DNA from: Terriglobia bacterium
GTDB lineage: Bacteria; Acidobacteriota; Terriglobia; Bryobacterales; UBA6623
DNA: 64,000 bases
Direction of reading: 5' to 3'
Assembly: GCA_009838515.1 (NCBI GenBank)
Contig: VXRL01000094.1
Location: forward strand, 1-64,000
Part shown: one piece after another, positions 1,222 through 40,398 of the stretch
How positions within the stretch are numbered: the first letter of the stretch is position 1
Layout of the letters: the number at the start of each line of letters is the position of its first letter
Position numbers and translations under genes: made by a program
Notes under the pieces: generated by a model
Told to the model about the DNA's origin: nothing
Database searches by the model: none
The model's input: only the letters and a program-made list of their open reading frames with translations

Positions 1222-1231
1222 CCCGCGGACC

Positions 1232-4064: not shown

Positions 4065-4070
4065 TATGAT
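4065..4070 (+). promoter_or_regulatory. Extended -10 promoter for tRNA-Ala
   Basis: TGG-TATGAT sits 12 bases before the tRNA 5' end and reads as an extended -10 element. No convincing -35 box lies 17 bases upstream. The position suits transcription starting just before the tRNA. The call is inferred from sequence only. Confidence 0.4.
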
Positions 4071-4082
4071 GAATCTAGGCTT

Positions 4083-4158
<76 letters not shown>

Positions 4159-4253
4159 TTCTTCTTGGGTCCGGCCCGGACACATAGGTCCGATAGACTT
4201 CGATAGGGAGTGGATATCTCGCGAGAGGTTCCTCCGCCGTTTCGGTGACCCGG

Positions 4254-5486: not shown

Positions 5487-5491
5487 GGCGA

Positions 5492-6736
5492 TCAACCCGC
5501 GGGTTCGAGATCCCAGCCGAAGCCCGGACCGTCGGAGGGACGCGTATAAATGCCCTCGGGCCCCCGTGTGAGGTTGTTGTCCTCTTCGTAGCGCTCGTAG
5601 ACCACATCGGGCCCGCCGGGCGCTGGCATGAACATCTCGGCCCAAGGCGAGTTCGGCGTGGCGTAGATGAAGTGGACCGAGTCGCGCGAGCCCCCGCCGT
5701 GCGGGATCACCGGTATATCGTGCGCAGCCGCCATGTGCGCGATCTTGATCAGCTCGCTCATGCCGCCGCACCAGTGGATGTCCGGCTGCCAGATCTCCGC
5801 CCCGTTGACGCGAAGCAACTGCCGGAATCCGTAGCGCGTGTAGACATGCTCGCCGGTGACGATCCGGGTTGAGGTGATTTGCTCGCGCAGCCGGCCGAAG
5901 CCCTCGAAGTCGTCCGGCGGCAGCGCCTCTTCGATCCAGTAGACGTTGTACGGCTCGAAGGCCTCGGCCAGTTCTAGGGTATACCGCTCCGTAAGCGCCA
6001 TCCAGCAGTCCATCATCACGTCGCCGTCCCGGCCTACTGCCTCGCGGGCGCGCTTGACCAACTCGACGTTCTTGCGGATTCCCGCCCTGCCATCAGCGGG
6101 CCCGTACGGAAGTGCCAGTTTCAGCCGCTTGTAGCCGAACTCCACGTGCTGCTCGATGTCGTTGCCCGTGCAATAGCAGGGGATCCGCGGGTGGATTCGG
6201 CCCCCCAGTATTCGCCAAACCGGCGCGTTCAGTACCTTGCCTGCGATATCCCACAGAGCGACATCGACGCCGGAGATCGCGTTCACCGTGACGCCCTTGC
6301 GCCCATACGACATCGTCGAACGCCACATGATGTCCCACAGCCGCTGAATGTCGAGCGGGTTCTCACCCATCAGGAGCCGAGTCAGGTGGTCTTCGACGAT
6401 CACACCCCCGCCGGGTCCCCCCGGGCCGTAGCCCTTGACGCCCTTGTTGGTATCGATCTCCACCCAGAAGCTGCGAGCTCGCGGCCCGTCAGCGCCGAAT
6501 AGGCTGCGCATCGGCTTGTACTTCGGATAAATCGAGACCGGGTTTGCGACTTCCACGCCGCCAGTCGACCACGATCCTGGCGCCGGATCGTATCTGGGCA
6601 CGGGGCGCCTGGGCCGCATGGTCACTAGGCGCACTCCGGTGATTCTCAGGTCGTCCTCCACCACGGGCGCTGCGCGGAGCATTTGCGGCGCTGCTGCCGC
6701 TAGTGGTGCGAGCTTAAGAAAGCTGCGACGATGCAT
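5492..6736 (-). CDS. L-rhamnonate dehydratase-like enolase-superfamily enzyme, Tat-exported
   Basis: This 414-residue protein begins MHRRSFLKLAPLAAAAPQML, a Tat leader, preceded by a strong ribosome site (GGGAGGAATTCGC before the ATG). The barrel resembles L-rhamnonate dehydratase (RhmD) in segments such as KLALPYGPADG, MMDCWMAL, WIEEALPPDDF, TGEHVYTRYGFRQLL and QPDIHWCGGMSELIKI. These contain the expected Asp, Glu and Glu metal ligands, and IPHGGG contains the catalytic His. RhmD removes water from L-rhamnonate and related acid sugars. Export by Tat is unusual for a characterised RhmD, but it is repeated in all three dehydratases here, so periplasmic processing of sugar acids is a reasonable inference. 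It is the middle gene of the operon. Confidence 0.88.
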   Translation of the reverse strand: MHRRSFLKLAPLAAAAPQMLRAAPVVEDDLRITGVRLVTMRPRRPVPRYDPAPGSWSTGGVEVANPVSIYPKYKPMRSLFGADGPRARSFWVEIDTNKGVKGYGPGGPGGGVIVEDHLTRLLMGENPLDIQRLWDIMWRSTMSYGRKGVTVNAISGVDVALWDIAGKVLNAPVWRILGGRIHPRIPCYCTGNDIEQHVEFGYKRLKLALPYGPADGRAGIRKNVELVKRAREAVGRDGDVMMDCWMALTERYTLELAEAFEPYNVYWIEEALPPDDFEGFGRLREQITSTRIVTGEHVYTRYGFRQLLRVNGAEIWQPDIHWCGGMSELIKIAHMAAAHDIPVIPHGGGSRDSVHFIYATPNSPWAEMFMPAPGGPDVVYERYEEDNNLTRGPEGIYTRPSDGPGFGWDLEPAG

Positions 6737-6781
6737 TGCGAATTCCTCCCTTGAACGGCTGAGGACCGTGCCGGCCCCGCT

Positions 6782-8077
6782 TCAGCCTGCCACCTCGAAG
6801 TTCCAGCCGAATCCAGGCTCCTCGGACGGCTGGATGTACACGCCCTCCGGCCCGCGGCTCATGAGTCGCTGCTCGGCGAACATCTCGTAGACCTCTTGTG
6901 GGCCGCCCGGAGCGGGAATCGTAGTCTCGGCCCACGTCATCTGCGGCAGGGTGGCGAGGTAGTGAATGCAATCGGTAGCGCCGCCGGCGTGCGGAATCAC
7001 CTGGATCCCTTGTTCCAGAGCCATTGCACCGATCTTCCTCATCTCGCTCATCCCGCCGCACCAGTTGATGTCCGGCTGCCAGATGTCGACGGCCCCATAG
7101 TGGGCCAGCCGCCCGAATCCGTAGCGTGTGTACTCGTGTTCGCCGGTCGCTAGGAACGTGGAGGTGATCTGGGAGTTGAGCCGCCCGAACCCTGCGTACT
7201 CGTCCGGCATCAACACCTCTTCCAGCCAGTAAACCCGGTACGGTTCCAGTTCCTGCGCCAACTGGATCGTGTACGCCTCCGAGAGCGCCATCCAGCAGTC
7301 GATCATGATTTCTCCGTCCGGACCCACCAGCTCGCGCGTACGCTTGACGTGCTCGACGTTCTTTTTCAGGCCCTCGCGACCGTCCGGAGGGCCGTGCTGG
7401 AGGGCCAGCTTGACCTTCGTGTAACCGAATTCCAAGCTTTGCTCGACGTCGTTTCCGGTGGCGTAGCAAGGAATGCGCTCCCAAGTCCTGCCCCCGGCGA
7501 GCTTGTATACCGGGACTCCGAATGTCTTGCCCACCAGATCCCATAGAGCAAGGTCCGCGCCGCTGATCGCATGCACCACCGCCCCGGCGCGGCCGTAAAA
7601 CAGCGTCGCGCGCCACATCACGTCCCAGAGGCGCTCCACGTCCAGCGGGTTCTTGCCCAGCAGTAGCTTCTTCAGGGCAGGATCGACGAAGGGACCCGCC
7701 GCCGAGCCGGCGCGGCCGTAGCCCTTCAGTCCCTTGTTCGTGCTGACCTCGATGGTGACGCCGCCTAGGGACCGATCGGGCATCCACTTGGATCCCGGGC
7801 CCCGCTTGCCGGTGTACTCGGGGTGGATCTCGATCGGCCGGGCTGCCTCGCGAGTGCTCCAGTACGAGCCAGGAGTCGGCTCGTAGGACGGCAGTGGGTT
7901 CTTTGCGCGGGTTCTCACGACGCGGACATCCGTGATCTCGAGGCCGGATTCTAGCGGCCATGGCTGTTGCCCCGAAGCCGCCTTCCCGGAGCCAGCGAGA
8001 ATCGCCGCGAAGCCGAGAAGATCGCGTCGGCTCATCGGTCTCGAAGCCGTCTCGCCGGTTCGTGCACGTTGTCTCAT
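6782..8077 (-). CDS. L-rhamnonate dehydratase-like enolase-superfamily enzyme, first gene of operon
   Basis: I chose the ATG at 8077 (431 residues, MRQRARTGETASRP then SRRDLLGFAAILAGSGKA, a Tat leader), preceded by AAGGGAACTGTGAC. The longer 450-residue start lacks a ribosome site. The body is a paralogue of the neighbouring gene, with matching motifs MIDCWMALSEAYT, YWLEEVLMPDEY, TGEHEYTRYGFGRL, QPDINWCGGMSEMRKI and IPHAGGATD. Metal-ligand acids and the C-terminal histidine are present. The pair probably arose by tandem duplication. Differences around the barrel loops (LALQHGPPDG against LALPYGPADG) suggest related but not identical substrates. Confidence 0.88.
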   Translation of the reverse strand: MRQRARTGETASRPMSRRDLLGFAAILAGSGKAASGQQPWPLESGLEITDVRVVRTRAKNPLPSYEPTPGSYWSTREAARPIEIHPEYTGKRGPGSKWMPDRSLGGVTIEVSTNKGLKGYGRAGSAAGPFVDPALKKLLLGKNPLDVERLWDVMWRATLFYGRAGAVVHAISGADLALWDLVGKTFGVPVYKLAGGRTWERIPCYATGNDVEQSLEFGYTKVKLALQHGPPDGREGLKKNVEHVKRTRELVGPDGEIMIDCWMALSEAYTIQLAQELEPYRVYWLEEVLMPDEYAGFGRLNSQITSTFLATGEHEYTRYGFGRLAHYGAVDIWQPDINWCGGMSEMRKIGAMALEQGIQVIPHAGGATDCIHYLATLPQMTWAETTIPAPGGPQEVYEMFAEQRLMSRGPEGVYIQPSEEPGFGWNFEVAG

Positions 8078-8402
8078 GTCACAGTTCCCTTCAACCATTG
8101 GCTGGTAGATCAAGCCGTGTTCTTCGGTCCCCAACTCGAATGCTCCCGCTGCTCCACACTATCCGGCATCCGCTCCGGCTGCCGCCGCGCCGAGTGCGAT
8201 TCTCCAGCGCGCTCAGCCCTAGCTGCGGGAATCGCTCCGATCCGGCGCGACGCCCGATGTCGCTTGGCCCTGTCAAGATTGCGGCCTGACGCTGTCTACC
8301 TCAGCGGGCGCAGTCCAATATACGCCCAAGAGTTGGTTCGCTGCCAGTGCCGAAATGCCCTTTGCGCACCCGGTCCCGTGATTTCCTAGACTCAAGGTCG
8401 CT
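8078..8402. other. Divergent intergenic region
   Basis: These roughly 325 bases separate the minus-strand dehydratase operon from the plus-strand Tm-1-like pair and must hold both promoters. I see no convincing sigma-70 pair or palindrome. ORFs reported here are short and not gene-like. Confidence 0.4.
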
Positions 8403-9632
8403 GTGCTGACAGTCGCCGTCATTGGAACTCTTGACACCAAGGGTGCGGAAGTCGCGTTCCTCGCCGAGCAGATCCGTGCTCGCGGATGCGACACCCTGAT
8501 GATCGATACGGGGATATTCGAGCCGCAGGCGATCGAACCGGATATTGCGCGCGAGACTGTGGCTCGCGCAGCTGGCGAGCGAACCGAGGCGCTAGCTGGA
8601 TCAGGAGATCGTGGCCGGGCAGTGGCGGCAATGACCCGAGGAGTCGAGAAGATCGTTCCGGATCTCTACGAGGAAGATCGCATACACGCCGTGATCGGCA
8701 TCGGCGGTAGCGCGGGAACGACGATCGCGACAGCCGCGATGAGGGCCCTGCCCATGGGCGTGCCCAAGGTGATGATCTCCACGCTCGCTGGAGGAGACGT
8801 CGCGGCATTCGTAGGCTCGAAGGACATCACCATGATCCCGTCCATCGTGGACATCAGCGGCTTGAACCGGATCAGTCGGCAAGTGATCGCCCAAGCGGCC
8901 GCGGCAGTGGTCGCCATGGCCCAAGCGGACGTCCCGGCGAGCGAGGACAGGCCGCTGATCGCGGCTTCGATGTTTGGCAACACCACGCAGTGTGTCGAAG
9001 CGGCCAGAGCAGTCCTGCAGTCGTCCGGGTTTGAAGTCCTGGTCTTCCACGCAACCGGCACCGGAGGCCGGACGATGGAGAGCCTGGTCTCGTCCGGCTT
9101 TTTCACGGCGGTGCTGGATGTGACGACGACGGAACTGGCTGATGACCTCGCCGGGGGAGTGCTGAGCGCCGGCCCAACGCGTCTGCAAGCCGCTGCCCGA
9201 GCCGGGCTTCCCGCGGTGGTCGCGCCAGGCTGCCTGGACATGGTGAATTTCTGGGCTCCCGAGTCAATCCCCGAGCGATATCGCAAGCGCCGGTTCTACC
9301 GTCACAATCCCAATGTGACCCTGATGCGAACAACACCCGAGGAGAACCGGGAACTCGGACGCCGGCTGGCGGAAAAGCTGAATGCCTCGGAGGGGCCAGT
9401 GGCGGTCTATCTGCCACTACGGGGCATCTCAGTCATCTCCGCGCCGGGACAGCCCTTCCATTGGCCCGAGGCGGACCAAGCGCTGTTCCAAGCGATTAAG
9501 GCGGATCTCCGCCCGGAGATCCCGGTATTCGAGCTGGATGCCAACATCAACGACCAGCAGTTTGCCGACGCGGTGGCCACGGGCCTCCTTCGGCTCCTCG
9601 GGCAGCCGGTTGGCACGGAAATCGCACGATAG
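8403..9632 (+). CDS. Tm-1-like ATP-binding domain protein (UPF0261)
   Basis: The 409-residue protein from a GTG start (AAGG just upstream) begins LTVAVIGTLDTKGAEVAFLAEQI. It contains the UPF0261 glycine-rich stretch VIGIGGSAGTTIATAAMRALP, followed by STLAGGDVAAFVGSKDI and SMFGNTTQCVEAA. This corresponds to the N-terminal domain of the tomato Tm-1 protein, which binds ATP and, in the plant, a viral replicase. The bacterial role is unknown. Six bases downstream begins the gene for the TIM-barrel half of Tm-1-like proteins, so the two genes together represent a split version of the plant protein. The proximity of dehydratases and a racemase suggests a role in small-acid metabolism, but this is inference. 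Confidence 0.9.
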   Translation: MLTVAVIGTLDTKGAEVAFLAEQIRARGCDTLMIDTGIFEPQAIEPDIARETVARAAGERTEALAGSGDRGRAVAAMTRGVEKIVPDLYEEDRIHAVIGIGGSAGTTIATAAMRALPMGVPKVMISTLAGGDVAAFVGSKDITMIPSIVDISGLNRISRQVIAQAAAAVVAMAQADVPASEDRPLIAASMFGNTTQCVEAARAVLQSSGFEVLVFHATGTGGRTMESLVSSGFFTAVLDVTTTELADDLAGGVLSAGPTRLQAAARAGLPAVVAPGCLDMVNFWAPESIPERYRKRRFYRHNPNVTLMRTTPEENRELGRRLAEKLNASEGPVAVYLPLRGISVISAPGQPFHWPEADQALFQAIKADLRPEIPVFELDANINDQQFADAVATGLLRLLGQPVGTEIAR

Positions 9633-9638
9633 GATTCA

Positions 9639-10514
9639 ATGGCCATCGAGGGTAAGAACATGAGTCACAGCTCGCCGCCGACTGGAATTCCGAGGGATGT
9701 CATTCTCTCGCGACTCAGGGATCAGGTGGCTCGCGGAGTCCCGATCATCGGCGCAGGGGCCGGGACCGGGATTTCGGCCAAGTGTGCCCAGTCGGGCGGT
9801 GCGGATCTGATCGTGATCTACAACTCTGGCCGCTTCCGCATGGCCGGGCACGGATCCTTGTCCGGACTCATGCCGTATGGCGACGCCAACCGGATTGTCG
9901 TCGAGATGGCCTGTGAAGTCCTTCCGGTTGCCCGGGATGTGCCGGTCCTTGCCGGCGTCTGCGGCACCGATCCATTCCGCTTGATGCATGTGTTCCTGCG
10001 GGAAATCAAGGCGATTGGATTCAGCGGGGTGCAAAACTTTCCAACCGTGGGGCTGATCGACGGGCTATTCCGGCAAAACTTGGAGGAGACGGGGATGAGC
10101 TTCTCGAAGGAAGTGGACATGATCGGCATCGCTCGCGAACTGGACCTGCTCACCACCCCTTACGTTTTCAGCCCGGAGGAAGCTGTCGAGATGGCGGCGG
10201 CGGGTGCCGACGTCTTGGTTGCGCACATGGGACTTACCACGAAGGGATCCATTGGTGCGCGAACGGCGAAGACGCTCGACGAAGCCGTTGCGGAGGTCCA
10301 GGCTATCCATGATGCGGCCAAGATGGAACGCGACGACATCTTGGTGATTTGTCACGGCGGGCCGCTCAGCGAGCCAGGCGACGTGCGTCACGTCTTAGGG
10401 CATACGGAGGGGATTGTGGGATTTTTCGGCGCCAGCAGCGTCGAGCGCCTCCCTACCGAGCGGGCAATCACCGCGCAGGTGACGGCTTTCAAAGAGATCG
10501 AATTACGGCAGTGA
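9639..10514 (+). CDS. PEP-hydrolase-like TIM-barrel protein
   Basis: This 291-residue protein begins 6 bases after the UPF0261 stop, with AGGA upstream of the ATG at 9639. A second ATG at 9660 also has a good site (GAGGG). Recognisable segments are [65 protein letters not shown] and [16 protein letters not shown]. They match the PEP_hydrolase/TIM-barrel family, homologous to the C-terminal domain of plant Tm-1 and related to the PEP-mutase/isocitrate-lyase barrel group. The enzymatic reaction has not been settled for this family. The tight spacing indicates co-transcription and probable physical interaction with the preceding protein. Confidence 0.9.
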
Positions 10515-10552
10515 CCTGGGGCTGGACGTTCCCGCACGCCGCGCGGAATGGC

Positions 10553-10951
10553 CTAACGAATGGATATCCAGGGCTCCTCCTCTGCTACGTCCACAAGCTC
10601 GTATCCGTCCTGCCCTATCGAGGGACCTAGGATGGCCAAGATCTTGGCAGCCCGGTTGCTCTCATTGAACGAGGCATGTACTTCGTTCTTGCTGATGAAT
10701 GCTGAGTCGCCTGCTCCCAGAGTGCGCTTCTCCGTACCAACCCACTGCTCGATTTCTCCTTCCACCACATAGATGACTTCCTCTTGATTGGGGTGCTTGT
10801 GGAAGTTGTGTCCGCTGTCTGGATCGAATCTCACTTCAACTACCACTAGGTTTTCTGTGCCGGTAGAGTCCGGATTGCTGAACCAAGCTAGCGTGCCCCA
10901 CGGCACCTGCTCGTATCGAGCTTCGCTGGAATCCGTGAATGTCCTCATCAT
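10553..10951 (-). CDS. Cupin-domain protein
   Basis: The real start is the ATG at 10951, preceded by CGAGGAGTG, giving 132 residues. The longer track ORF is shadow sequence upstream. The fold is a single cupin: metal motif 1 is HNFHKHPNQEEVIYVVEGEIE and motif 2 is GDSAFISKNEVHASFNES. The histidines and glutamate that usually hold the metal are visible, though motif 2 keeps a single His. Small cupins of this type are often sugar isomerases, sensors or lyase helpers, and the substrate cannot be inferred. It converges with the Tm-1-like pair and lies 110 bases downstream of the larA-like gene on the same strand, so it may share its transcript. Confidence 0.85.
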   Translation of the reverse strand: MMRTFTDSSEARYEQVPWGTLAWFSNPDSTGTENLVVVEVRFDPDSGHNFHKHPNQEEVIYVVEGEIEQWVGTEKRTLGAGDSAFISKNEVHASFNESNRAAKILAILGPSIGQDGYELVDVAEEEPWISIR

Positions 10952-11061
10952 CACTCCTCGCCCAGATGGGCCTTGTCGGCGGTTCGGCGGCCTACGCTTC
11001 GTGGACTCGGCCCTGCGTCGCGATTTCGGCTGTGCTGCAGCCGTTGCGCCAGAGGCTCTCG

Positions 11062-12333
11062 CTAGTGCTGCAGCTGCGAAAACACGTACGGGCCTTCGGG
11101 GATCACTACGACTCGCGCTCCGTCTTGCAGCCGCCCCGTGAGGCCGTCCACTGCCGCCTGCGCATCCGTGTGGCTGGGACCCCACAGTTTGGACCGGTCC
11201 GCCTCGGAGAGTCCCGGCACACAGAAAGAGAGCTGCGCCCGCTGCGCGACCATGGCGAGCTTTTCCGCTTGCCATTGGTCGACGCGCACGGCCCGCTCGG
11301 ACAGCACGTCAAGCAATTCCGAGAAGTCATCGGATTCGCGCACCAGCTGGCTGAACTCAGGCCCGCCCAAGCCCTCGTTGCAGGCGGCCGCCAGAAGGAT
11401 CTCGCCGCCCTCTCGCACGATGTGTGCCGCAGCGGTCAGGCCCTTGACGGCTTGGTAAAACGTGAGGTCAAGCGGATATCCTCCCGATGTTGTGATTACG
11501 GCATCGGCCGGCCGGTCAAGCGTTGCCAGCGTTGACTGCCGCACGAACTCTACGCCCTGCGCGTGAGCAGAAACCGGATCGCCCGCAAATACGGCCGCGA
11601 TCGCCCGAGTGTCGGTCAACGCCACATCGACCATGAAGTCGTGACCGGCCATGGCTGCGATCTCAAGCAGCTCGCGGTGAAGCGGATTGTCGGGAAATGA
11701 CCCCTCCGTTGCCTTCGGATCTCGCATGTAGAGCGGGCTGTGCAGGCGCTTGATCGTCCTCTCGCCCGCCAGTCCTATGCCGATCAACTTGCGCCCGCCC
11801 GAGAATCCGGCCATCAAGTGGGGCTCGATGAACCCGAGCGTGATGTGCAAGTCTGCTTCGACGAAACGCTCGTCGACGAATGCCTGCGTCCCGCCAGCAG
11901 TCTCTCCCAGAAACACCTGCTCTTCGATTTCGCGCGCTCGGTGAGAGTGCACGGGATGGTGTTTCAGGATGGTTTCCCCGACGATCTCCTCCAGTTCCTC
12001 GGCAGTTGCCTCGCGATGCAGGCCGGTTGCGATCATGATCGTGATCGCGCTTGGCGAGATGCCGCCGGCCTGCAGTGCACCGATCACGTGCGGCAGCACG
12101 GTCTTGTTGGGTGCCGGCCGGGTGATGTCGCAAACCGCGATCGCAGCACTCTTCTTTCCGCGCGCGAGATCTTCGAGACTCGGGCAGCCAATCGGGCTCG
12201 CGATGGCCGCCGCCAGTGCCGCGTCCTCGTCTGCCAGACCGGTTGCGAAGCGCGGTCGAAGCACTTGAGTGTCAAGCTCGTCGGGAATATCGACGGTAGT
12301 TCCTTCGCGGTCGAACGCCAGTGTTACCTGCAT
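11062..12333 (-). CDS. larA: LarA-type nickel-pincer racemase family protein
   Basis: The 423-residue protein carries the LarA signature DITRPAPNK (about residues 69-77), followed by TGLHREATAEE with the first catalytic histidine, HPVHSHRA, and SGGRKLI with the lysine that in lactate racemase binds the nickel-pincer cofactor. LarA enzymes interconvert stereoisomers of 2-hydroxy acids such as lactate, malate or sugar acids. The symbol denotes the family, not a proven lactate substrate. Cofactor-making genes larB, larC and larE are not in this window. The position beside acid-sugar dehydratases and a symporter suggests that the real substrate may be a hydroxy acid produced there. It is divergent from the symporter gene. 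Confidence 0.85.
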   Translation of the reverse strand: MQVTLAFDREGTTVDIPDELDTQVLRPRFATGLADEDAALAAAIASPIGCPSLEDLARGKKSAAIAVCDITRPAPNKTVLPHVIGALQAGGISPSAITIMIATGLHREATAEELEEIVGETILKHHPVHSHRAREIEEQVFLGETAGGTQAFVDERFVEADLHITLGFIEPHLMAGFSGGRKLIGIGLAGERTIKRLHSPLYMRDPKATEGSFPDNPLHRELLEIAAMAGHDFMVDVALTDTRAIAAVFAGDPVSAHAQGVEFVRQSTLATLDRPADAVITTSGGYPLDLTFYQAVKGLTAAAHIVREGGEILLAAACNEGLGGPEFSQLVRESDDFSELLDVLSERAVRVDQWQAEKLAMVAQRAQLSFCVPGLSEADRSKLWGPSHTDAQAAVDGLTGRLQDGARVVVIPEGPYVFSQLQH

Positions 12334-32241: not shown

Positions 32242-33204
32242 ATGTCGCTGACATCGTTGCTGCCCCGCATCGCTTCGGAGTCTCGTCGGGCACGGCAGCG
32301 AGCCATGCGGTCGCTATTGGCTCTGGCCTTGCTGGCCTGGACTCCCCTGTTCGGACAGAGCGTTGTCGAGGGCTTGGAGTTGGACCTCGCGCCCCTCGAA
32401 GCGCTTCCGTTCGTCTGCCCGATGGACCCCGATATCAGGTCCGGGAGCGCAGGAGTCTGCTCCCGTTGCGGGATGCAACTCGTCTTCGGCCTGCCCGTGC
32501 CAGCCGAGTACCCGGTCCGATTGACGACTACTCCAGCAGCGGTTCGAGCGGGTGAGCCCGTGGAGTTGGGTTTCGAGGTCTTGCAGCCTGATAACGGGGA
32601 GCGCCAGACCGAATTCGAGCTTGTTCACGAGAAGCTCTTTCACCTGTTTTGGGTGAACCACGACCTTGAGGTGTTCCGGCACGAGCATCCCACGCTTGGC
32701 GACGACGGCATCTTTCGGATCGAAACGACGTTCGACCGACCCGGCGTGTATCGGCTAATGGGCGACTTCTACCCGACCGGCGGGACTCCCCAGATGATTC
32801 CGATGACGTTGACCACGGCGGGATTCGAGGAGCCGTTGGAGATGCTGGCTCCTCGCCTGGCCGCCGATAGAGAGCCCAAGCGCGGCCGCAACGTCAAGGT
32901 CTCTCTGCGCACCGATCCGCCTGAGCCGTTAGCGGGTCTTCTGACGCTGCTGTTTTTTGAGCTCAACACCGCCCGGGGGCTGCAGAAGTACTTGGGCGCA
33001 TGGGCGCACATGCTCGCGGTCAAGGACGATCTGATCACGATGATGCACGGTCACCCCAGCATTGCCGATGGCGGCAAGCTGATCCAGATGAATGTGATCT
33101 TCCCGGAACCGGGCATGTACCGAGTGTGGGTGCAGGTACGGCGCAAGGGGAAGGTCAGCACGCTCCCGTTCACGGTAGAGGTGAGCGGGCTGCCATCGCT
33201 CTGA
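32242..33204 (+). CDS. Secreted protein with heavy-metal-binding (CPMDP...CxxCGM) motif
   Basis: From the ATG at 32242 the product is 320 residues. An ATG at 32305 (299 residues, MRSLLALALLAWTPLFGQ) fits the signal peptide better but has no ribosome site. Just after the leader lies FVCPMDPDIRSGSAGVCSRCGMQLV, the short heavy-metal-binding domain found in copper and silver efflux proteins. The remainder (about 90-320) is beta-rich with HLFWVNHDLEVFRHEHP and AHMLAVKDDLITMMHGHP, histidine patches that could also bind metal. A periplasmic copper-related role is plausible. No efflux pump is adjacent. Confidence 0.78.
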   Translation: MSLTSLLPRIASESRRARQRAMRSLLALALLAWTPLFGQSVVEGLELDLAPLEALPFVCPMDPDIRSGSAGVCSRCGMQLVFGLPVPAEYPVRLTTTPAAVRAGEPVELGFEVLQPDNGERQTEFELVHEKLFHLFWVNHDLEVFRHEHPTLGDDGIFRIETTFDRPGVYRLMGDFYPTGGTPQMIPMTLTTAGFEEPLEMLAPRLAADREPKRGRNVKVSLRTDPPEPLAGLLTLLFFELNTARGLQKYLGAWAHMLAVKDDLITMMHGHPSIADGGKLIQMNVIFPEPGMYRVWVQVRRKGKVSTLPFTVEVSGLPSL

Positions 33205-33313
33205 TCTGCAGCCCTACTCCGCGCGGCCGGCCCAAGCGAACCTAGGCTGGGGGCCTGATACCCGATAGGTGACCCGCAAGGGGAGGGAGGGACCGGACCA
33301 TCGTCGGACGGCC

Positions 33314-33376
33314 TTGACAGATCCTGATAAATCGGAGTGTATTCCGAGTTAGTTGACCTAATTCGGAATACACTCC
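33314..33376 (+). promoter_or_regulatory. Promoter with overlapping perfect inverted repeat
   Basis: TTGACA at 33314-33319 is followed after 18 bases by TGTATT. The region overlaps a perfect 14-base inverted repeat, GGAGTGTATTCCGA (33334-33347) with TCGGAATACACTCC (33363-33376). An operator on top of a -10 is typical of an autoregulated gene. The gene directly downstream is the broken AAA ATPase. Confidence 0.6.
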
Positions 33377-33381
33377 TGCTT

Positions 33382-33613
33382 GTGAGCTACGAGAGAATCC
33401 TCAGCCTGGAACTTCCTCAGGGACAGTCGGCCTTCCTCTGGGGGCCGCGCAAGACAGGAAAGTCCACGCTGCTTCGCTAGCGATTCCGCGAGACACGAGA
33501 GAAGGGATCGACGAAACTGAGGCGCTTCTGGATCCGGACCTTGCTCAGCGGGGAGTCACGCTGGAACAGCGCGAGAGCTTGGTTCTGTTAGCGTTGGTCC
33601 TTGGATCGACAAC
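33382..33613 (+). pseudogene. Truncated AAA-family ATPase (DUF4143-type) fragment
   Basis: A GTG at 33382 opens a frame reading SYERILSLELPQGQSAFLWG then GPRKTGKSTLLR, the N-terminus and Walker A of the DUF4143-linked AAA ATPases. An in-frame TAG at 33478-33480 interrupts it after 32 codons, followed by RFRETREK, so a GAG-to-TAG change is likely. The remaining 130 bases no longer resemble the family, and the ATPase body, arginine finger and DUF4143 domain are absent. It is therefore a deletion remnant. Its promoter and operator remain intact upstream. Confidence 0.75.
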
Positions 33614-33853
33614 ATGATCAGGACGCAGATTTCCCTAGACCATGAACTGTACAGTCGAGCCAAGTCGATGGCGAGACGACAGGAGATTTCGCTGGCCGAA
33701 TTGTGTCGGAGGAGCTTGCGCGAAACGGTTTCCCAGGAACCGGTAGACAGGCCATGGATGGCATTCGCCGGAATACTTGACGGAGAGCGGGACGACAGTG
33801 AATCCGTCGATGACGTGGTTTACCGTCACGACATGCCACGAAATCTGGAATAG
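33614..33853 (+). CDS. Ribbon-helix-helix antitoxin
   Basis: The 79-residue protein begins MIRTQISLDHELYSRAKSMARRQEISLAELCRRSLRE, a ribbon-helix-helix DNA-binding domain in which the first strand and two helices are clear. The acidic C-terminal tail (DDSESVDDVVYRHDMP) is typical of the toxin-binding part of RHH antitoxins. The gene ends in TAGTG, and the overlapping GTG opens a 23-codon stub of a PIN toxin. The antitoxin is complete, whereas its partner is not. It would be expected to repress its own promoter. Confidence 0.75.
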   Translation: MIRTQISLDHELYSRAKSMARRQEISLAELCRRSLRETVSQEPVDRPWMAFAGILDGERDDSESVDDVVYRHDMPRNLE

Positions 33854-33924
33854 TGTGCCTCGAGACGGGAATCTACATCGCGCTGCTGGACTGGGACGCT
33901 GCGTTTGGTAGCGGGCTGGCGTAG
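33853..33924 (+). pseudogene. Stub of a PIN-domain toxin
   Basis: A GTG overlapping the antitoxin stop opens CLETGIYIALLDWDAA and then ends at TAG after 23 codons. PIN toxins start with a strand and D-T-G/N motif followed by ALLD, so LETGIYIALLD fits. The catalytic Asp is replaced by Glu and the remaining 100 or so residues are missing. Confidence 0.5.
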
Positions 33925-33963
33925 GGTGGACGCGGAACCGATCTCTTTACTAACAGGTCCATC

Positions 33964-34221
33964 ATGGCACTCAACATCAAGAACGACGAGACGTGCCTGC
34001 TCGCCCGCGAATTGGCTCGACTGACCGGCGAGACCATGACGGGTGCGATCACCGTTGCGCTGCGCGAACGCTTAGAGCGTGAGCGGCATCGCCGCCGTGC
34101 AGACGCTTTAGCCGGCGAGCTTCATGCGATCGGACAGCGCTGCGCCAGCATATTGAAGCCAGGGCCTTCAGCCGTGGAACATGGCGAGTTGCTCTATGAC
34201 GAGAGAGGATTGCCTAAGTGA
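33964..34221 (+). CDS. VapB-type (PSK family) antitoxin
   Basis: This 85-residue protein starts MALNIKNDETCLLARELARLTGETMTGAITVALRERLERER, the signature of VapB antitoxins of the PSK/Rv0623 family. An N-terminal DNA-binding strand-helix-helix is followed by a basic helix. The C-terminal part (SILKPGPSAVEHGELLYDERGLPK) contains the toxin-binding LLYDERGLP motif. Its AAGTGA end overlaps the GTG start of a VapC fragment, as expected for a vapBC operon. The antitoxin is intact but the toxin is truncated. Confidence 0.88.
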   Translation: MALNIKNDETCLLARELARLTGETMTGAITVALRERLERERHRRRADALAGELHAIGQRCASILKPGPSAVEHGELLYDERGLPK

Positions 34222-34343
34222 TCTTCGATTCGTCCGCTATCCTCGCCGTCGTCGTCCTACCCAGATCTTGCACGTCTATCACCTTTGCTCCTTGGGCCAA
34301 GCTAGTCTGGCCGGGGGGTGAGTTCATTAGTAGATCGATGTAG
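34218..34343 (+). pseudogene. Truncated VapC-type PIN toxin
   Basis: The frame opens with GTG overlapping the VapB stop and reads VIFDSSAILAVVV, the canonical N-terminus of VapC with the catalytic Asp in DSSA. It then diverges and stops at TAG after 41 codons. The rest of the PIN domain with the other acidic residues is missing. The junction after the 13th codon suggests a deletion. Confidence 0.75.
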
Positions 34344-34423
34344 CTGTGTTCATCCACGGTGCCTCTCGCCATGGAACTGAACATCCGCGAATCGCGCAAG
34401 CCGGCACGCGCAGCTGATCTGAA

Positions 34424-34452
34424 TTGCTTTTTTATCGCGGATACGCTATAAA
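34424..34452 (+). promoter_or_regulatory. Sigma-70 promoter of higBA-type pair
   Basis: TTGCTT is followed by exactly 17 bases and TATAAA. The latter ends 8 bases before the TTG chosen as the toxin start, so the transcript would have almost no leader. Confidence 0.6.
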
Positions 34453-34459
34453 CCAATGG

Positions 34460-34777
34460 TTGGAATGGTCGGTTGAAACTGTCGTCGCATCCGATGCCGA
34501 AATCGCAGCGTTACCAACCAAGCTTCGGGCTCGGTTGGTCCGCCTGCTGGAAATGGTTGAGAATGTCGGCCTCGAACAGCTTCGCGAGCCTCATGTCAGG
34601 CATCTGGAGGGAAAGCTCTGGGAGTTGCGGGCGAAGTCGCGAGATGGGATCGCCAGAGGGATCTACGTGACCGTCACGGGACGGCGCGTCATAGTTCTCC
34701 ATGTATTCGTCAAGACATCGCGGCGCACGCCGCGGCAAGCGTTAGCGACGGCCAAGGAGCGAATGAAGCAGGTGTAA
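34460..34777 (+). CDS. RelE/HigB-type (Gp49-like) toxin
   Basis: From a TTG at 34460 the product is 105 residues (LEWSVETVVASDAEIAAL). The track ORF from 34424 begins inside the promoter and is less likely, though the start is not settled. The body KLRARLVRLLEMVENVGLEQL, HVRHLEGKLWELRAKSRDGIARGIYV and VIVLHVFVKTSRRTPRQALATAKERM matches phage Gp49/HigB-type RelE-fold toxins, which cleave mRNA on ribosomes. It retains the basic C-terminal residues used for catalysis. The downstream antitoxin gene begins 1 base after the stop. Unlike the PIN systems around it, this pair looks complete. Confidence 0.85.
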   Translation: MEWSVETVVASDAEIAALPTKLRARLVRLLEMVENVGLEQLREPHVRHLEGKLWELRAKSRDGIARGIYVTVTGRRVIVLHVFVKTSRRTPRQALATAKERMKQV

Positions 34778-34778
34778 C

Positions 34779-35063
34779 ATGGCGAAATTGAAGGATCTGA
34801 AAGAGCGTTTCATGAAAGACCCGGCGTTCCGTGAGGAATACGCGCGGGCAGACGAAGAGTATGCGTTGGTGGAGGCAATGGTCCATGCCCGCACGGCCGC
34901 GAAGTTGACACAAGCCGAACTGGCAGCGCGTATCGGCACTACACAGTCGGCGATTGCAAGGCTGGAGGGAGGCAGGCTTTCGCCGTCGGTCCGGACCCTG
35001 CGCCGGTATGCCGAAGCAACAGGTATGCGGCTGACGTTCGGATTTGAGCGCGCCGACGGTTGA
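34779..35063 (+). CDS. HigA-type XRE-family antitoxin
   Basis: The 94-residue protein has a helical N-terminal segment (LKERFMKDPAFREEYARADEEYALVEAMVHAR). A Cro/C1-type helix-turn-helix follows (KLTQAELAARIGTTQSAIARLEGGRLSPSVRTLRRYAEA). The length and layout are those of HigA antitoxins encoded just after HigB/RelE toxins. It should neutralise the toxin and repress the promoter upstream. The gene starts immediately after the toxin stop. Confidence 0.9.
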   Translation: MAKLKDLKERFMKDPAFREEYARADEEYALVEAMVHARTAAKLTQAELAARIGTTQSAIARLEGGRLSPSVRTLRRYAEATGMRLTFGFERADG

Positions 35064-35193
35064 GCGCTCGCACGTACGCGTGCCCCCGTCGGAAGCCTGC
35101 TATCGAGCAACGGATTCGACCTTAGCGGCTATCGGTATCAGGATTCGCCGGCTAGGTTGCTAGCCGACGTATTGATCGCGCCTGCAGAGACAG

Positions 35194-36921
35194 TTACTCG
35201 ACGTATTTCTCTCCCAACCATTCCGGCACGCGCTGGTCGTATCGCAGTTTGGTGCGCTGTGCGAACGCTCCTTCAAAACACGAGTCGAGATCCGGGTCCA
35301 ATGGTAGGACGCCTGGCAAGCTGGACGCAGCCTCAAGCTCGAACCGCTTTCGAATTAGAGGACTTGACGACCCGTACGCCGCCTCCCACCAAGACATGAT
35401 GCGGTCGCGTGCGGCCAGCATAAGCGTCGCGCTTGGCAACTTCGCTCGCTTCTCGTTCTGGTTCACCGACCGATTGGCGGGCATGAGATTCCAGAGGTCG
35501 GAGCACGGCCAAGCCGACCAAGGAAAGCAGTGGTCGAGGTCTAGCGACCTTGTTGAGAGTCTCTTGCCGCTCCAGACGCAATAGAGCTTGCTGGACTCCA
35601 GCAGATCTCGCGCCTGCCGCTTGGCGACCCCAACGTCTCGCGTGGGGTCGGACCATATCATCGCTGCGGCCGCGCGATCCCTTGGCAACTCTCGGCCCTG
35701 TGTTTCTGCGTACCGCTGCATGAGTCGGATCCACTCCTCGACTAGCGCTGGCTCGATCCAGACTGCAAACCGTTGCACGGCCTGCCAGATTCTCCATGGA
35801 ACGAGCATCTCGCCGAAACTGCGCAGGTACGGTTCGTCGATGACATTGGGCGTTAGCCCCCGAGGGAGCCTTGGGGTGTGGTTCACCGGGAGGATCGGAG
35901 TCCCATCCGGAAACGTCATGTAGTGGGCGGGCATGGTCCGGATCGTTCCGGCCGCATCGCGGAGAGCCCCGTGGAGAGCCGCTGAGTCGGCTGGGCCAAG
36001 GCGAATTCCCACTCTCATATCTAGGTGAGAGAATGCCATGAGGCTGCAAAAATCTTCGCGTGCGAATCCGATGTGAACTCCTCCGCGGACATTCTTCGGA
36101 TTCTGTGGGAAGTCAGCTGCGAGCAGTGGCTTGTAGAGCCTCAGCCACGTCAGCGCGACCAGCCCGAGCGGAATCGAGACTTTGTCGTCGTCGGTGAGCC
36201 GCACGAGCCCGGCGGAGCCATCAGCGATGCGGCAAATCGACCGCAGCAGGCCGAGCTTGTAGGTCGAGCTTTTGTCGTCGTTCAGAATCACGTGCCGGAG
36301 CAGGGGCAGCGCGCCTGTTCCGTCGTCCGGAAACCGCAGAACGTAGTTCTTCCACCGGACCCCGTCGCGGCCCAACAGATCCTCGCGCTCCACTGCACGA
36401 TGGACAATCGTCCCGTGCTTCTTCGCTAGCGACTCGATTTCTGAACTGTCCACGCCGTACATCCCGCGCTCGGGTTCTTCGGGACCGATCCGCAGAGAGA
36501 GGGCAATGATGCCACCTGGCCGAAGAAGGTTGACAAGCTTGCGAAAGGCTCTGGGACGCTGCCCCGGAGGGACGTGCATCCATACTCCGCTGAGCAGGAT
36601 GACGTCGAACGAAAGCCCCGATCGCACCGCGTAGTCCAGCTTGGGAAGCGAGTCGTGGACCCAGCGCACCGAGGGGGAGGGATGTAGCTCCGTAGCCAGT
36701 AGCCGCATCGATTTGGAGGGTTCGACGGCGAACACCTCGTAGCCCTTTGCGGCGAGCCAGGCGGCGTCGCGCCCGGATCCGGCGCCGACATCTAGGACGA
36801 GCGCCGGCGGTTCGGGCAGCAGGTCGGTCACCCAGTCGTACAGGGATTCTGGGTCCACGGATTCGTATCGTGATGCGACCGTGCTTGCGTGTTTGTCGTA
36901 CCAAGCGACAGGATCTTTCAT
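35194..36921 (-). CDS. Class I SAM methyltransferase fused to an HNH endonuclease domain
   Basis: The ATG at 36921 (MKDPVAWYDKHASTVASRYE) gives 575 residues. The 39 extra codons in the track ORF look non-conserved. Residues 1-190 are a Rossmann methyltransferase with motif I LVLDVGAGSGRDAAWLAAKG (41-60), the SAM-binding acidic EPS, and FDVILLSGVWMHVPPGQRPR. Residues 220-430 are unassigned, although the part near 390-420 (WRIWQAVQRFAVWIEPALVEEW) resembles regions preceding HNH domains in other proteins. Residues 446-497 form an HNH nuclease: LYCVWSGKRL, LDLDHCFPWSAW and DLWNLMPANRSVNQNEKRAKL. The fold pairing of modification and cutting in one chain recalls self-guarding restriction enzymes, but no target-recognition domain is recognised. 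It sits in the toxin-antitoxin island. Confidence 0.8.
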   Translation of the reverse strand: MKDPVAWYDKHASTVASRYESVDPESLYDWVTDLLPEPPALVLDVGAGSGRDAAWLAAKGYEVFAVEPSKSMRLLATELHPSPSVRWVHDSLPKLDYAVRSGLSFDVILLSGVWMHVPPGQRPRAFRKLVNLLRPGGIIALSLRIGPEEPERGMYGVDSSEIESLAKKHGTIVHRAVEREDLLGRDGVRWKNYVLRFPDDGTGALPLLRHVILNDDKSSTYKLGLLRSICRIADGSAGLVRLTDDDKVSIPLGLVALTWLRLYKPLLAADFPQNPKNVRGGVHIGFAREDFCSLMAFSHLDMRVGIRLGPADSAALHGALRDAAGTIRTMPAHYMTFPDGTPILPVNHTPRLPRGLTPNVIDEPYLRSFGEMLVPWRIWQAVQRFAVWIEPALVEEWIRLMQRYAETQGRELPRDRAAAAMIWSDPTRDVGVAKRQARDLLESSKLYCVWSGKRLSTRSLDLDHCFPWSAWPCSDLWNLMPANRSVNQNEKRAKLPSATLMLAARDRIMSWWEAAYGSSSPLIRKRFELEAASSLPGVLPLDPDLDSCFEGAFAQRTKLRYDQRVPEWLGEKYVE

Positions 36922-37236
36922 GGCGCTGCGCCCGAAACTGCGGTATTGGCTGAATACGGCTTCCGTGCTAGGCGCGCTGGTGGTCGCTCCAGAAGCCAGC
37001 CGCCTCGCAAGCGATTTTCGCGCAAACGGAGCCCCCACTGCATCGCACCACTAGAAACACGATGGTTGCAACGGAAACCGGGGCGGACTGTGAACAGCCA
37101 ATCGGCTGCCATTCCCGGGTCCGGTCGGTTCAGTGACCGGGATTCTCGAAGGAATTGCAGCACGTAGTGGCTGGCCAAGGCCAATTCATCCCGCTCGCCG
37201 CCTTCCTGCCGTGCCGCTTGGACTATCTCAGGAACC
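36922..37236. other. Intergenic region upstream of methyltransferase-HNH gene
   Basis: I see no gene here. It holds the probable promoter of the methyltransferase-HNH gene. Short ORFs on both strands overlap the PIN pseudogene or are shadows. Confidence 0.35.
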
Positions 37237-37736
37237 CTATAGCTGGCTATGCTCAGCTAGAACCAAGTGTCCAAGCGTTCTGTCGTGCCATCTCCTTGTG
37301 TATGCCTCTCGTAGCGATGGGTTTGGGCGATGGCCGACATCGTCGAGCAATCGTTCCAATGAGACCAGTCTGGTGCGGAATCCGAGTCGAATTCCGAAGC
37401 GTAGACTCGCCTTGTCTGGACCGCACAGTATCCAGGAATCGTCACGATGAGCTGCGTGCGCCCAAAGCGAAGCCTCGCCCTTATCGAGGGCGATATCGGG
37501 TACTCGCACGGCCAACTCGGCTCGCGCGCGGTCTGTGACGCGATGTACCGCTGCCAATGACTTACGCAACTCGGCCCCATCGATCCGCCGTTCCGGCCGC
37601 CGCCGTTGCTTGCCAGCTTGTGTTTCCGCTACGCAATCTTCGACAGTCTGAACCCGGTACCCGCCCGCGAGTGCGCGTCAAGAGCCTGTGCGGTGAGATT
37701 CCAAGATGACATTCGTATCGATGAGTAGTGGGCCAT
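37237..37736 (-). pseudogene. PIN-domain toxin, broken by a frameshift and a stop codon
   Basis: Reading the minus strand from the ATG at 37736 gives MAHY. After a one-base frame change it continues LIDTNVILESHRTGS, then TGA, then RALAGGYRVQTVEDCVAETQAG and so on in frame to the end (EASLWAHAAHRDDSWILCGPDKASLRFG, LVSLERLLDDVGHR). This is a PIN-like nuclease with an N-terminal DTN motif and a late acidic cluster (DDSW, GPDKA). The stop codon sits where Trp is expected (GSW). Two independent lesions make it non-functional unless recoded. The gene lies 19 bases downstream of the XRE-ImmA gene, as a toxin partner would. Confidence 0.75.
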
Positions 37737-37755
37737 GATGTCGCGCCATCGCAAG

Positions 37756-38862
37756 TCACAGGTCGACCGGCCGCGCGACTCCATTCGCCACGAACAGATC
37801 GGCCATATCTTCAATGGCGAGGCCGAGCAAGGCGGCTAGTCGGCGGACGGAGACATAACCCGCTTCGATAGCCAAAGCGAGGATCTCGACAAATCGTCTT
37901 GAGAACAGCGCAGGTGTTGCGCCACCGACCACCTGGTGCCCGTTGTTGAGCAGCGCATCCTCGGGCAGCGAGCGGGCCACGGCAAGCTTCAGTTCCCCGA
38001 GCGAGACGAGCCGCCACCGCAGGGCGGAGGAGGTCACTCGAAGTTCGTCTGCCACAGCGTTCAGCTGTGCTATCAGATCCTTCCCGGGCAGGCTAGCCCA
38101 ACCGGCCGTTTGTTCAAGCGTCGAAGCCGGCATTAGAACTGCCGCTGCGAAATTGTTAGCGAGTTGTTCAACTCGGTTGCCGCCGGTTTCCCGGATCTCC
38201 TCGGAACGTTCCGGCGGCATGGCGTCCCACGTCAGGATGTGGAATAACTCGTGCGCAAGACCGAAATTGCGCCGGCCTTCGACCTCTCGACGTTGGATTA
38301 TGACTGTGTCCAATTCCGGCAACCGGCAAGCCGCGCCAGAGATGCCTTGCTGGGCATCAACCATCAGAACCAAGATGCCCAGTTCACGCTCCATGACTTC
38401 GATCAACCCCGTTGCAGGTACCTCCCCAAGGTTGAACTCCGTGACGAATCGCTCCCCAGCCGCCATGGCATCCTCGAAACGCGAGTTGCGGGTAAGCCCT
38501 AGCGCCCGGCGCATGAGCGGCAAGTCGCGCCCGACTTGCGGCGCCAGTGCACGGTACGCCGCGATCCACCGACCGGCGTCGCGTTCGTAGTCTTCGAGTT
38601 GGTCTACTTGGACACCTGTATGCCGCCATGAGAAGCGGCCTTCGCCGACGAGTTGAAACGGATCGGTGAAGTATTCAAGCGGTGCGCCCAGCCTTTCGAC
38701 TGCTAGCATCAATTCCGTCGCTGTCATGCGGCGTGTGCCGGTCTCGATCGCCGAAACGGTTTGGCGGTCCTTGAATCCGAACAGCTGAGCAAGATCATCT
38801 TGGGAGAGCCCCTGCTCTACGCGCATCGCCTTGAGGCGCACTCCTATCAGGTGCGTATCCAT
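37756..38862 (-). CDS. XRE-family regulator with ImmA/IrrE metallopeptidase domain
   Basis: The ATG at 38862 gives 368 residues. The N-terminal helix-turn-helix is clear (RLKAMRVEQGLSQDDLAQLFGFKDRQTVSAIETGTRRM). A central domain follows and an ImmA/IrrE peptidase core carries the zinc motif HELFH in NFGLAHELFHILTWD and a downstream NFAAAVLMP segment. Such proteins either cleave a repressor (ImmA) or act as regulators or antitoxins. The gene is followed on the same strand by the dead PIN gene, which suggests it once formed a two-gene module. It is intact, with a well-placed promoter region. Confidence 0.85.
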   Translation of the reverse strand: MDTHLIGVRLKAMRVEQGLSQDDLAQLFGFKDRQTVSAIETGTRRMTATELMLAVERLGAPLEYFTDPFQLVGEGRFSWRHTGVQVDQLEDYERDAGRWIAAYRALAPQVGRDLPLMRRALGLTRNSRFEDAMAAGERFVTEFNLGEVPATGLIEVMERELGILVLMVDAQQGISGAACRLPELDTVIIQRREVEGRRNFGLAHELFHILTWDAMPPERSEEIRETGGNRVEQLANNFAAAVLMPASTLEQTAGWASLPGKDLIAQLNAVADELRVTSSALRWRLVSLGELKLAVARSLPEDALLNNGHQVVGGATPALFSRRFVEILALAIEAGYVSVRRLAALLGLAIEDMADLFVANGVARPVDL

Positions 38863-38881
38863 CACTACCTGTCCTAGTGTA

Positions 38882-38908
38882 ATTATCATTGCACATTTCT
38901 ATTTGCAA
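38882..38908 (-). promoter_or_regulatory. Promoter and inverted repeat before XRE-ImmA gene
   Basis: On the minus strand GATAAT lies about 20 bases before the ATG, and TTGCAA lies 15 bases upstream of it. TTGCA (38889) and TGCAA (38904) form an inverted repeat with a 10-base spacer, and another TGCAA occurs at 38917. These repeats could be the operator for autoregulation by the XRE domain. Confidence 0.4.
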
Positions 38909-39153
38909 GAATTCCGTGCAAACTGTCTTTCGCGGAGAATCTCCATCCTTGTCTCTTGATTGCAAGATCGGACGAGGCTAGAACGGCGTTTGATTCCGAT
39001 CAGCGCACCGATGATCGGAAGCACGGGAGGTGCTTGGAACTGCTTGGCGGGGCCTTGGGCGAGTCAGGCTACAGCGGTCGGCCGGAGGCTAGGAGATGCC
39101 CGAGGTGAATCTGCTGCATCTGGGACTCGTGACGAGTTCCCGGGAATCTAAGA

Positions 39154-40398
39154 TCAGGCCCAAAGGGGTCGAAGTGAAGCGACGCCCCGCGCGGCCCTCT
39201 CGATGTGCTCACGAGTGTTGTATACGTGCGGACACAAGCGAAAGCCGCCGGATGTCGATCCGGCGATGCCGAACTTGTCGTACATGGCATCGAAGACTGC
39301 TTGTCGCTTTTCCGGTGCGACCTGCACGATGCATACCCCAGCGCTGAGCTTGTCGTCGAGTGGTGTGACAAGCTTGGCTCCTGCCTCAGCTAGGGACTGC
39401 TTTAGGAGAGAGGAGAGTTCACGGACTCGCTGTTCCACACGATCTGTCCCGATGGAGGAGTGAAATCCCGCAGCCTCGCTCATCGCGCTGATCGCAGCGT
39501 CATCGCGTTGTCCCATTGATTCGAACTTCCGGGCACCCTCGAGTTCGGTCTCCGCCTCGTTACCCCATCCGGGAGCCACGGTACTGGGCCAGATCTCTGG
39601 GATCCTTTCACGGCGGACATAGAGGAGCCCGACTTCCTTCGGTCCGCAGTACCACTTGTGCGCGCTTGCTGCGAATGAATCGCAGCCAAGCTCGTGGAGA
39701 TCCAATTCAAGCGCGCCCCAGGTCTGGGCTCCGTCCACATGGACGTAGACTCCAGAGCGCCGGGCGAATTCGCAGAGCTCCCGCACCGGCAGCAGCAGCC
39801 CGCTCACGTTGGACGCATGGGTGAGGGCCAGCACGCGCGTCCTCGGAGACAGTGCCTCCCTAAACGGACGGATCAACTCATCAGGGTTGGTAGGGTTCGG
39901 CGGAACCTCAACCTCTCGCAGCGAGAATCCTCTCCGTTGCGCCCGCACCTTCCAAGCGACGTTGTTGGTCGGATGGTTCTGGCGCCAGATCACAACCTCG
40001 TCGCCGGCTTTGAGGTCGAGCCCGTTGTTGATGATGTTGTTGGCCTCGCTGGTATTGCGAACTAGAGCCACTTCGTCCGCTTCCGCTCCGATCTGGTCTG
40101 CAACGCTGGCCCGCGCTGTCTCCCGGTCCGAAGCGTAGCGCTCCCGGTTTTGAAAGGAGCAGTCCTCATCGATCGACCTAGTCAGCTCTGTCACGGTCGC
40201 GGCGACACTCGTCGGAGAAGGGCACAGGTTCGCGGCGTTCATGGGCACGCGGTCTTCCCCAAACGGAAACTTCTTCCGGACCTCTTCCCAATACGCCTCG
40301 CCTTCTTCGGCCCTTGCTACGCCGCGGGGGCGCATGGCCAAGGCCGAGGCCGTTGCGATGCCAGTCAGAAACCGCCGTCTCGTTTCTTCTGTAGTCAT
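39154..40398 (-). CDS. Tat-exported class V aminotransferase-fold PLP enzyme
   Basis: The 414-residue protein opens with a Tat leader (TRRRFLTGIATASALAM). It has the isopenicillin-N-epimerase/class V aminotransferase fold: NTSEANNIINNGLDL, HPTNNVAWKVRAQRRGF, THASNVSGLLLPV, HVDGAQTWGALELDLHELGCDSFAASAHKW with the PLP lysine, and the C-terminal GFRLCPHVYNTREHIER. Exported PLP enzymes of this class are frequent in this phylum. The reaction (desulfuration, epimerisation or aminotransfer) cannot be told. It stands alone, divergent from the YdjM-type gene. Confidence 0.87.
   Translation of the reverse strand: MTTEETRRRFLTGIATASALAMRPRGVARAEEGEAYWEEVRKKFPFGEDRVPMNAANLCPSPTSVAATVTELTRSIDEDCSFQNRERYASDRETARASVADQIGAEADEVALVRNTSEANNIINNGLDLKAGDEVVIWRQNHPTNNVAWKVRAQRRGFSLREVEVPPNPTNPDELIRPFREALSPRTRVLALTHASNVSGLLLPVRELCEFARRSGVYVHVDGAQTWGALELDLHELGCDSFAASAHKWYCGPKEVGLLYVRRERIPEIWPSTVAPGWGNEAETELEGARKFESMGQRDDAAISAMSEAAGFHSSIGTDRVEQRVRELSSLLKQSLAEAGAKLVTPLDDKLSAGVCIVQVAPEKRQAVFDAMYDKFGIAGSTSGGFRLCPHVYNTREHIERAARGVASLRPLWA

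Follow-up and report, generated by a model that had tools for sequence, protein, structure and literature searches.

A single gene of a Terriglobia bacterium joins a predicted class I SAM methyltransferase to an HNH nuclease, and what is new here is that relatives of its methyltransferase half are coupled, as separate genes, to at least four types of nuclease, including some within Dnd operons. The gene lies on the minus strand at positions 35194-36921 of the window, the 64,000-nucleotide stretch of DNA that was analysed, and encodes a protein of 575 amino acids in which a middle domain separates the methyltransferase from the HNH domain. The fusion may be a self-contained anti-invader nuclease with a built-in protective methyltransferase, a reading to which we give slightly less than an even chance. 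A search of open-access papers found no description of this coupling of methyltransferase and nuclease.

The gene is one uninterrupted frame that starts with the ATG at 36921, and its homologues begin at the same methionine. Its product contains all three motifs quoted in a first-pass annotation (LVLDVGAGSG, LDLDHCFPW and NRSVNQNEKR), and the intact minus-strand frame with Pfam matches at both ends bears out the proposal made there of a real single-chain methyltransferase and HNH protein. Residues 1-197 (36331..36921, minus strand, as are the other parts) make up the methyltransferase, as delimited by Pfam, conservation and fold matches. They are followed by a basic middle domain of pI 9.5 at residues 199-440 (35602..36327, marked by 'ND.KSSTYKLGLLR...' and placed by hhalign and alignment), the HNH nuclease at residues 441-520 (35362..35601, from the Pfam family HNH_4, the motif and conservation), and a C-terminal helical tail at residues 521-575 (35197..35361) in the structure model. 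All three main parts of the fusion are under purifying selection, with dN/dS between 0.04 and 0.27 in each when the window gene is compared with four relatives at about 90% identity. These values, together with full-length homologues in three bacterial classes, rule out a chance frame. Across 34 fusions, D44, G46, G50, R51, D52, E67, D90, W114 and N478 are invariant, and G48, D463, H464 and N487 are retained in all but one.

Sequence and a predicted model place the N-terminal half among the class I methyltransferases, with TehB, UbiG and CmoM. Pfam places Methyltransf_25 at residues 42-137 (E 9.5e-15), and the Pfam and NCBIfam matches as a whole are to Methyltransf_25/11, UbiG and TehB. Motif I reads D44-x-G46-x-G48-x-G50-R51-D52 and motif II E67-P68, with further marks at D90 and V113-W114-x-H116, so that both motif I and the Rossmann fold expected of class I SAM methyltransferases are present. 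The model of this part has a pLDDT of about 90 and matches the folds of TehB, UbiG and CmoM; sequence and fold matches taken together are to small-molecule, protein and tRNA methyltransferases (UbiG, TehB, CmoM, METTL6 and similar enzymes). Beyond the SAM pocket, W114, R144, R152, D181, R185 and W190 are also retained among the fusions. The family serves outside nuclease systems as well, as indicated by a Streptomyces plasmid (L034, 5956-7086) in which the same kind of methyltransferase is fused to a GNAT acetyltransferase. A stand-alone member is found in Escherichia phage phi458 (L033, 2336-3519), beside a 194-aa ORF near the integrase, where it is possibly a counter-defence or cargo gene.

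By motif and by fold matches, this half is not a DNA methyltransferase. A motif search of all 575 residues gave neither [DNS]PP[YFW] nor PCQ, which upholds the first-pass view that the protein is not a standard type II fusion. The presence of a methyltransferase and a nuclease in one chain is just what an ordinary type IIC/IIG restriction-modification fusion would offer, and the window protein shares that much with such enzymes. Unlike them, it lacks the DNA-methyltransferase motif, and no target-recognition domain was found: residues 200-440 have no Pfam match that could represent one, and the low-confidence C-terminal model has no PDB fold match. With no motif IV and a methyltransferase of only about 197 residues in the TehB/UbiG class, a type IIC/IIG enzyme is already largely refuted and is very improbable. 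The class of the methyltransferase also disfavours ordinary base methylation at a DNA sequence. Its mean pI is 6.9 in the fusions, as against 8.8 for the middle and HNH parts, and lies between 5 and 6 in the separate operonic relatives; a neutral or acidic half of this kind would be poorly suited to binding DNA alone.

The middle of the protein had been described as matching no family. This holds for Pfam, which covers none of residues 200-440 in the window protein, and fails for more sensitive comparison: middle domains alone, with the HNH part excluded, align to those of stand-alone HNH nucleases with an hhalign probability of 98.4% (E 9.2e-15, 208 columns). On this profile alignment the middle domain is part of a family of HNH nucleases with stand-alone members. 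The stand-alone proteins are about 385 aa long and annotated 'HNH endonuclease domain-containing protein', and they occur in Leptolyngbya, Nostoc, Tolypothrix, Deinococcus and on Hymenobacter plasmids. They share with the fusion the middle domain and the HNH site, arranged alike, at about 25% identity, and lack its methyltransferase half. The small gene that precedes these stand-alone nucleases was considered as a conserved partner and rejected, the small proteins being mutually unrelated.

HNH_4 matches residues 448-496 of the window protein at E 1e-4, with 22.6 bits against a cut-off of 22. The H-N-N metal site of that superfamily is present as D463-H464-N478-N487, with the same spacing as D839-H840-N854-N863 in the HNH domain of Cas9; profile matches to Cas9 chains are weak, E 0.001 at best. 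Pfam gives no RuvC domain of the kind found in Cas9 and IscB, only Methyltransf and HNH_4, and there is no Rfam family nearby. The phosphorothioate-dependent SBD-HNH enzymes differ from it through their N-terminal sulfur-binding domain, the model for which (NF045808) has no match in the window protein. The predicted C-terminal part is weakly modelled (mean pLDDT 65), and a fold search with this low-confidence model alone gave no significant PDB match.

The identity of the two domains bears on whether the target might be RNA. In such a scheme the HNH domain would cut RNA, for example tRNA, and the methyltransferase would mark host RNA as immune. The methyltransferase class does suit RNA or small molecules better than DNA, and the tRNA enzymes CmoM and METTL6 are among its fold matches. 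The HNH domain is nevertheless of the DNA-cutting Cas9 kind, and the other partners of the family (PLD-helicases, SBD-like HNH nucleases and Dnd operons) act on DNA, which makes an RNA-directed effector quite improbable.

The fusion occurs as a single gene in Acidobacteriota, Alphaproteobacteria and Gammaproteobacteria, where full-length homologues share roughly 35-92% identity. Ten other genomes from the genus of the window were compared, and seven of them have the fusion; it is also found in Haliea and others, and on plasmids of Roseomonas, Azospirillum, Sphingobium and Pseudoalteromonas. The prospect that the fusion is seen only in this assembly is thus excluded by homologues in three classes and by its frequency within the genus. 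Among 399 sampled Pseudomonadota genomes, 16 carry it, one split copy included. An eighth genome among the ten from the genus, the complete G009, carries the fusion only as broken pieces with stops (G009:C1:2707246-2708080; L019, L089). In the window's closest relatives the fusion adjoins the same aminotransferase-like gene while the TA cargo varies, and its site differs in those genus members that are less closely related. Another genome, G007, holds two different fusions on separate contigs (L017/L086 and L087), which are 68% and 56% identical to that of the window. In L081 (G345, 9066-11277) the fusion reads as two overlapping frames of 339 and 400 aa, which may reflect a frameshift, a sequencing error or a genuine split. 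Short fusions in L069 and L070, at first candidates for broken copies, proved to be full-length with a non-ATG/GTG start. An origin as a phage gene was likewise rejected, the fusion being virtually absent from viral contigs: scans of IMG/VR gave no full-length copy, only a fragment of the HNH part and a stand-alone HNH, and phage records have stand-alone methyltransferases only.

The window neighbours of the fusion comprise TA genes together with genes for an aminotransferase-like and a copper-type protein. The gene had been placed between a toxin-antitoxin pair and an XRE-ImmA/PIN remnant. The pair is there, a HigB-type toxin (Gp49, 34424-34777) with its XRE antitoxin (34779-35063), both on the plus strand and both recognised by Pfam. 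The remnant is one only in part, since the XRE-ImmA gene (HTH_3 and Peptidase_M78, 37756-38889, minus strand) is intact at 377 aa by Pfam, with PADLOC matches of the RmrA type, and the damage is confined to the PIN toxin between it and the fusion (37243-37749, minus strand), where a single in-frame stop falls near residue 24. In L083 (G001), from a relative, the PIN frame between the XRE-ImmA gene and the fusion is unbroken. Farther out on the plus strand, 33614-34221 holds a ribbon-helix-helix-like ORF and then a VapB-type antitoxin (PSK_trans_fac, 1.4e-26; the antitoxin itself, from Pfam, at 33964-34221). A PIN frame that begins just past this antitoxin, at about 34213, is decayed, so that the antitoxin is an orphan without its PIN partner. 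All of these TA genes are context only, and no Rfam family is found at window positions 33000-40000.

Other fusion loci have more to offer. Gene calls in the compared loci are longest-ORF calls and defence labels are profile matches. In Haliea (L009) a single strand reads pglZ, brxL, a small ORF and then the fusion, which thus lies 3' of BREX genes. L131 (G680, 1-7809) has ZacA, a 595-aa ORF, ZacC and the fusion, the last after a gap of 17 bp, and the fusion is placed there like a fourth gene of the ZacABC operon. Four of 23 loci have a SauUSI-like enzyme (PLD-helicase-DUF3427) in the vicinity of the fusion, three of them next to it or nearly so (L008, L075, L076) and one nearby (L074). WYL regulators are near in 3 of the 23, AIPR is next to the fusion in L078, and the locus of Roseomonas haemaphysalidis (L028) has McrBC and VapBC. 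A DUF429 gene is found there too, and others stand 3' of the fusion on the same strand in L077 and L079, at 10 and 58 bp. In L137 (G671, 1287-8036) the fusion is upstream, on the same strand, of a DNA-methyltransferase-like gene, a kinase-like 829-aa gene (PADLOC CARF_STK_AAA, 2.4e-26) and a 357-aa ORF, a set that may be an undescribed operon.

Counts of neighbouring genes point in the same direction. Among the Pfam matches listed for 124 genes no more than three genes from the 23 fusions are ResIII four times, DUF3427, WYL and PLDc_2 three times each, HNH twice, and AIPR and BrxL once each. Among the matches listed for 108 control genes from the same genomes, by contrast, no such family reaches two members, and there is one type II methyltransferase domain. 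The excess over control stretches is suggestive rather than a formal test, and PADLOC neighbour counts at E 1e-10 are noisy, since control stretches also match through housekeeping families. All told, homologues do lie in defence neighbourhoods (BREX, ZacABC, McrBC, SauUSI-like, AIPR), and the first-pass annotation was right to propose a defence candidate; the absence of enrichment that would have spoken against it is not what the neighbour counts show, modest as their statistics are. Two things weigh against a defence role: the window's own neighbours offer TA genes only, and for about half of the fusions no defence gene is recognised up to three genes away.

In a non-defence reading, the protein would serve in housekeeping or repair, or would be an ordinary methyltransferase of the cell that has a nuclease tail by chance. 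Many fusion loci do have ordinary neighbours (L006, L011, L067, L071, L080), and a related clade of stand-alone methyltransferases resides among metabolic genes (L129, L130, L140-L148). That said, the patchy distribution in Pseudomonadota, the differing sites within one genus, the decayed copies (G009), the carriage on plasmids and the defence neighbours are all unlike housekeeping, and a non-defence role is improbable.

The most informative neighbourhoods are those of the methyltransferase family itself. It had been reasoned that halves found as ordinary separate genes would tell against the fusion, and separate genes do occur, but as adjacent co-directional pairs, a finding that strengthens the case for a unit. 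The methyltransferase is the upstream gene in all seven of these pairs, and its spacing to the nuclease gene ranges from -4 to +37 bp. In L119 it is followed after 1 bp by a separate HNH gene with the 'TYK' middle motif, the pair lying downstream of an apparent type I RM operon. In L133 the gap is 17 bp, the nuclease is an HNH of the fusion kind and dndE is next (NCBIfam, 8.7e-33). In L121 and L122 an SBD-like HNH follows after 3 bp, and its N-terminus matches the model for phosphorothioated-DNA-binding restriction enzymes, NF045808 (for L121 at 7.6e-17, which is below the curated cut-off). Overlaps of 1-4 bp join the methyltransferase to a PLD-helicase in L126 and L138, and another helicase lies 37 bp downstream of it in L124. 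A PLD-helicase is also adjoined, on the opposite strand, in L123 and L132. In the first of these (G446, 5715-9845) two distant methyltransferase paralogues flank one PLD-helicase, whose C-terminal end looks like an S24/LexA-type domain. The SauUSI-like enzymes (PLD, SF2 helicase and DUF3427), frequent neighbours of the fusion and operon partners of the methyltransferase family, are unrelated to the window protein in nuclease and architecture.

Dnd operons provide a further setting. The same methyltransferase family is found in those of L125, L128, L133 and L031, and HNH nucleases of the fusion kind in the first three, but the halves are separate genes beside dnd genes, whereas the window protein is a single chain. 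Both halves are in the operon of L125 (dndB and a probable dndC), where the HNH reads as two overlapping frames, and in that of L128 (dndD, dndE); DndB, DndD, DndE and dnd_rel_methyl were identified across these two loci. The Rhizobium member (L031) is a methyltransferase 44% identical to that of the window. The alignment of the Dnd-linked HNH with the C-terminal half of the fusions (hhalign 97.2%, E 4.5e-11) spans the HNH and some 90 residues N-terminal to it. The dndC model TIGR03183 has no match in the window's own genome. Kinship with MADS is of a different order. The window methyltransferase matches PADLOC mad2 at E 1.2e-19 over profile positions 274-421 of 492 only, so that the first 270 or so positions of Mad2 are missing, and a scan of window neighbours with part of the mad profiles turned up no further mad gene. 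Membership was rejected as non-specific, since stand-alone family members match too (1.7e-17); the match is domain kinship and not MADS membership.

On a methyltransferase tree of 67 rows, nuclease coupling as against none needs only three changes, the partner type changes often, and the uncoupled members fall mainly in one clade with metabolic neighbours. These trees come from short searches and have long branches, and coupling labels were assigned by the analyst from the loci. A single fusion event was rejected, the fusions not forming one clade (AU p 2e-5, on a quick tree); either fusion, splitting or partner exchange took place more than once, or the short tree misleads. The locus L120 (G430, 6339-6956) has lost the nuclease half but has an intact methyltransferase ORF, beside the same acyltransferase and beta-CASP genes as at the fusion loci L077 and L079. 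Retention of this half is what would be expected of a protective one.

How the fusion might work can be sketched from these parts. The C-terminal HNH would cut foreign DNA, brought to nucleic acid by the basic middle domain, while the N-terminal methyltransferase would protect the host genome from the HNH through SAM-dependent methylation, whether of self DNA or of the nuclease. In outline this would be restriction-modification, only with a methyltransferase from the wrong class. Self-protection is suggested by a methyltransferase that accompanies the nuclease, is encoded first and has an intact catalytic site; the catalytic residues of both halves are intact, and the same family is repeatedly coupled to several nuclease classes. 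Against protection stand the missing motif IV, the want of a recognisable target-recognition domain and the fold matches to small-molecule, protein and tRNA methyltransferases, as well as the fact that Dnd operons already mark self through phosphorothioation.

The main rival explains the same gene arrangement with the enzyme as a sensor. Here the methyltransferase would hold the HNH inactive as long as SAM or its normal substrate is available, and SAM depletion or a substrate change brought about by a phage would free a suicide nuclease that backs up methylation-dependent systems. Some phages encode SAM-degrading enzymes. A constant domain with interchangeable nucleases is the usual layout of sensor and effector, and the methyltransferase is often beside systems that depend on SAM or on DNA marks (BREX, type I RM, Dnd). 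Among the partners, however, PLD-helicases and SBD-like nucleases resemble complete restriction enzymes rather than bare suicide effectors, and the residues retained beyond the SAM pocket fit real catalysis as well. A SAM-gated guard is unlikely on this balance.

Protection by methylation may extend beyond the fusion. The methyltransferase family, non-canonical and not of the DNA type, could be an interchangeable partner that either guards the cell against or activates at least four unrelated nuclease classes by way of an undescribed mark, with the window protein as its single-chain form. The mark might be on the nuclease, on the DNA backbone or phosphorothioate, or on RNA, and the partner would operate in Dnd, type IV, BREX-linked and stand-alone settings; this broader proposal is a tentative one, somewhat short of an even chance. 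If the proposal is true, several restriction-type nucleases would share a protective methyltransferase that belongs to none of the known DNA-methyltransferase classes. This would account for the small methyltransferase genes in Dnd operons and beside SauUSI-like enzymes, and the 575-aa single gene would offer the simplest version of the methyltransferase for study.
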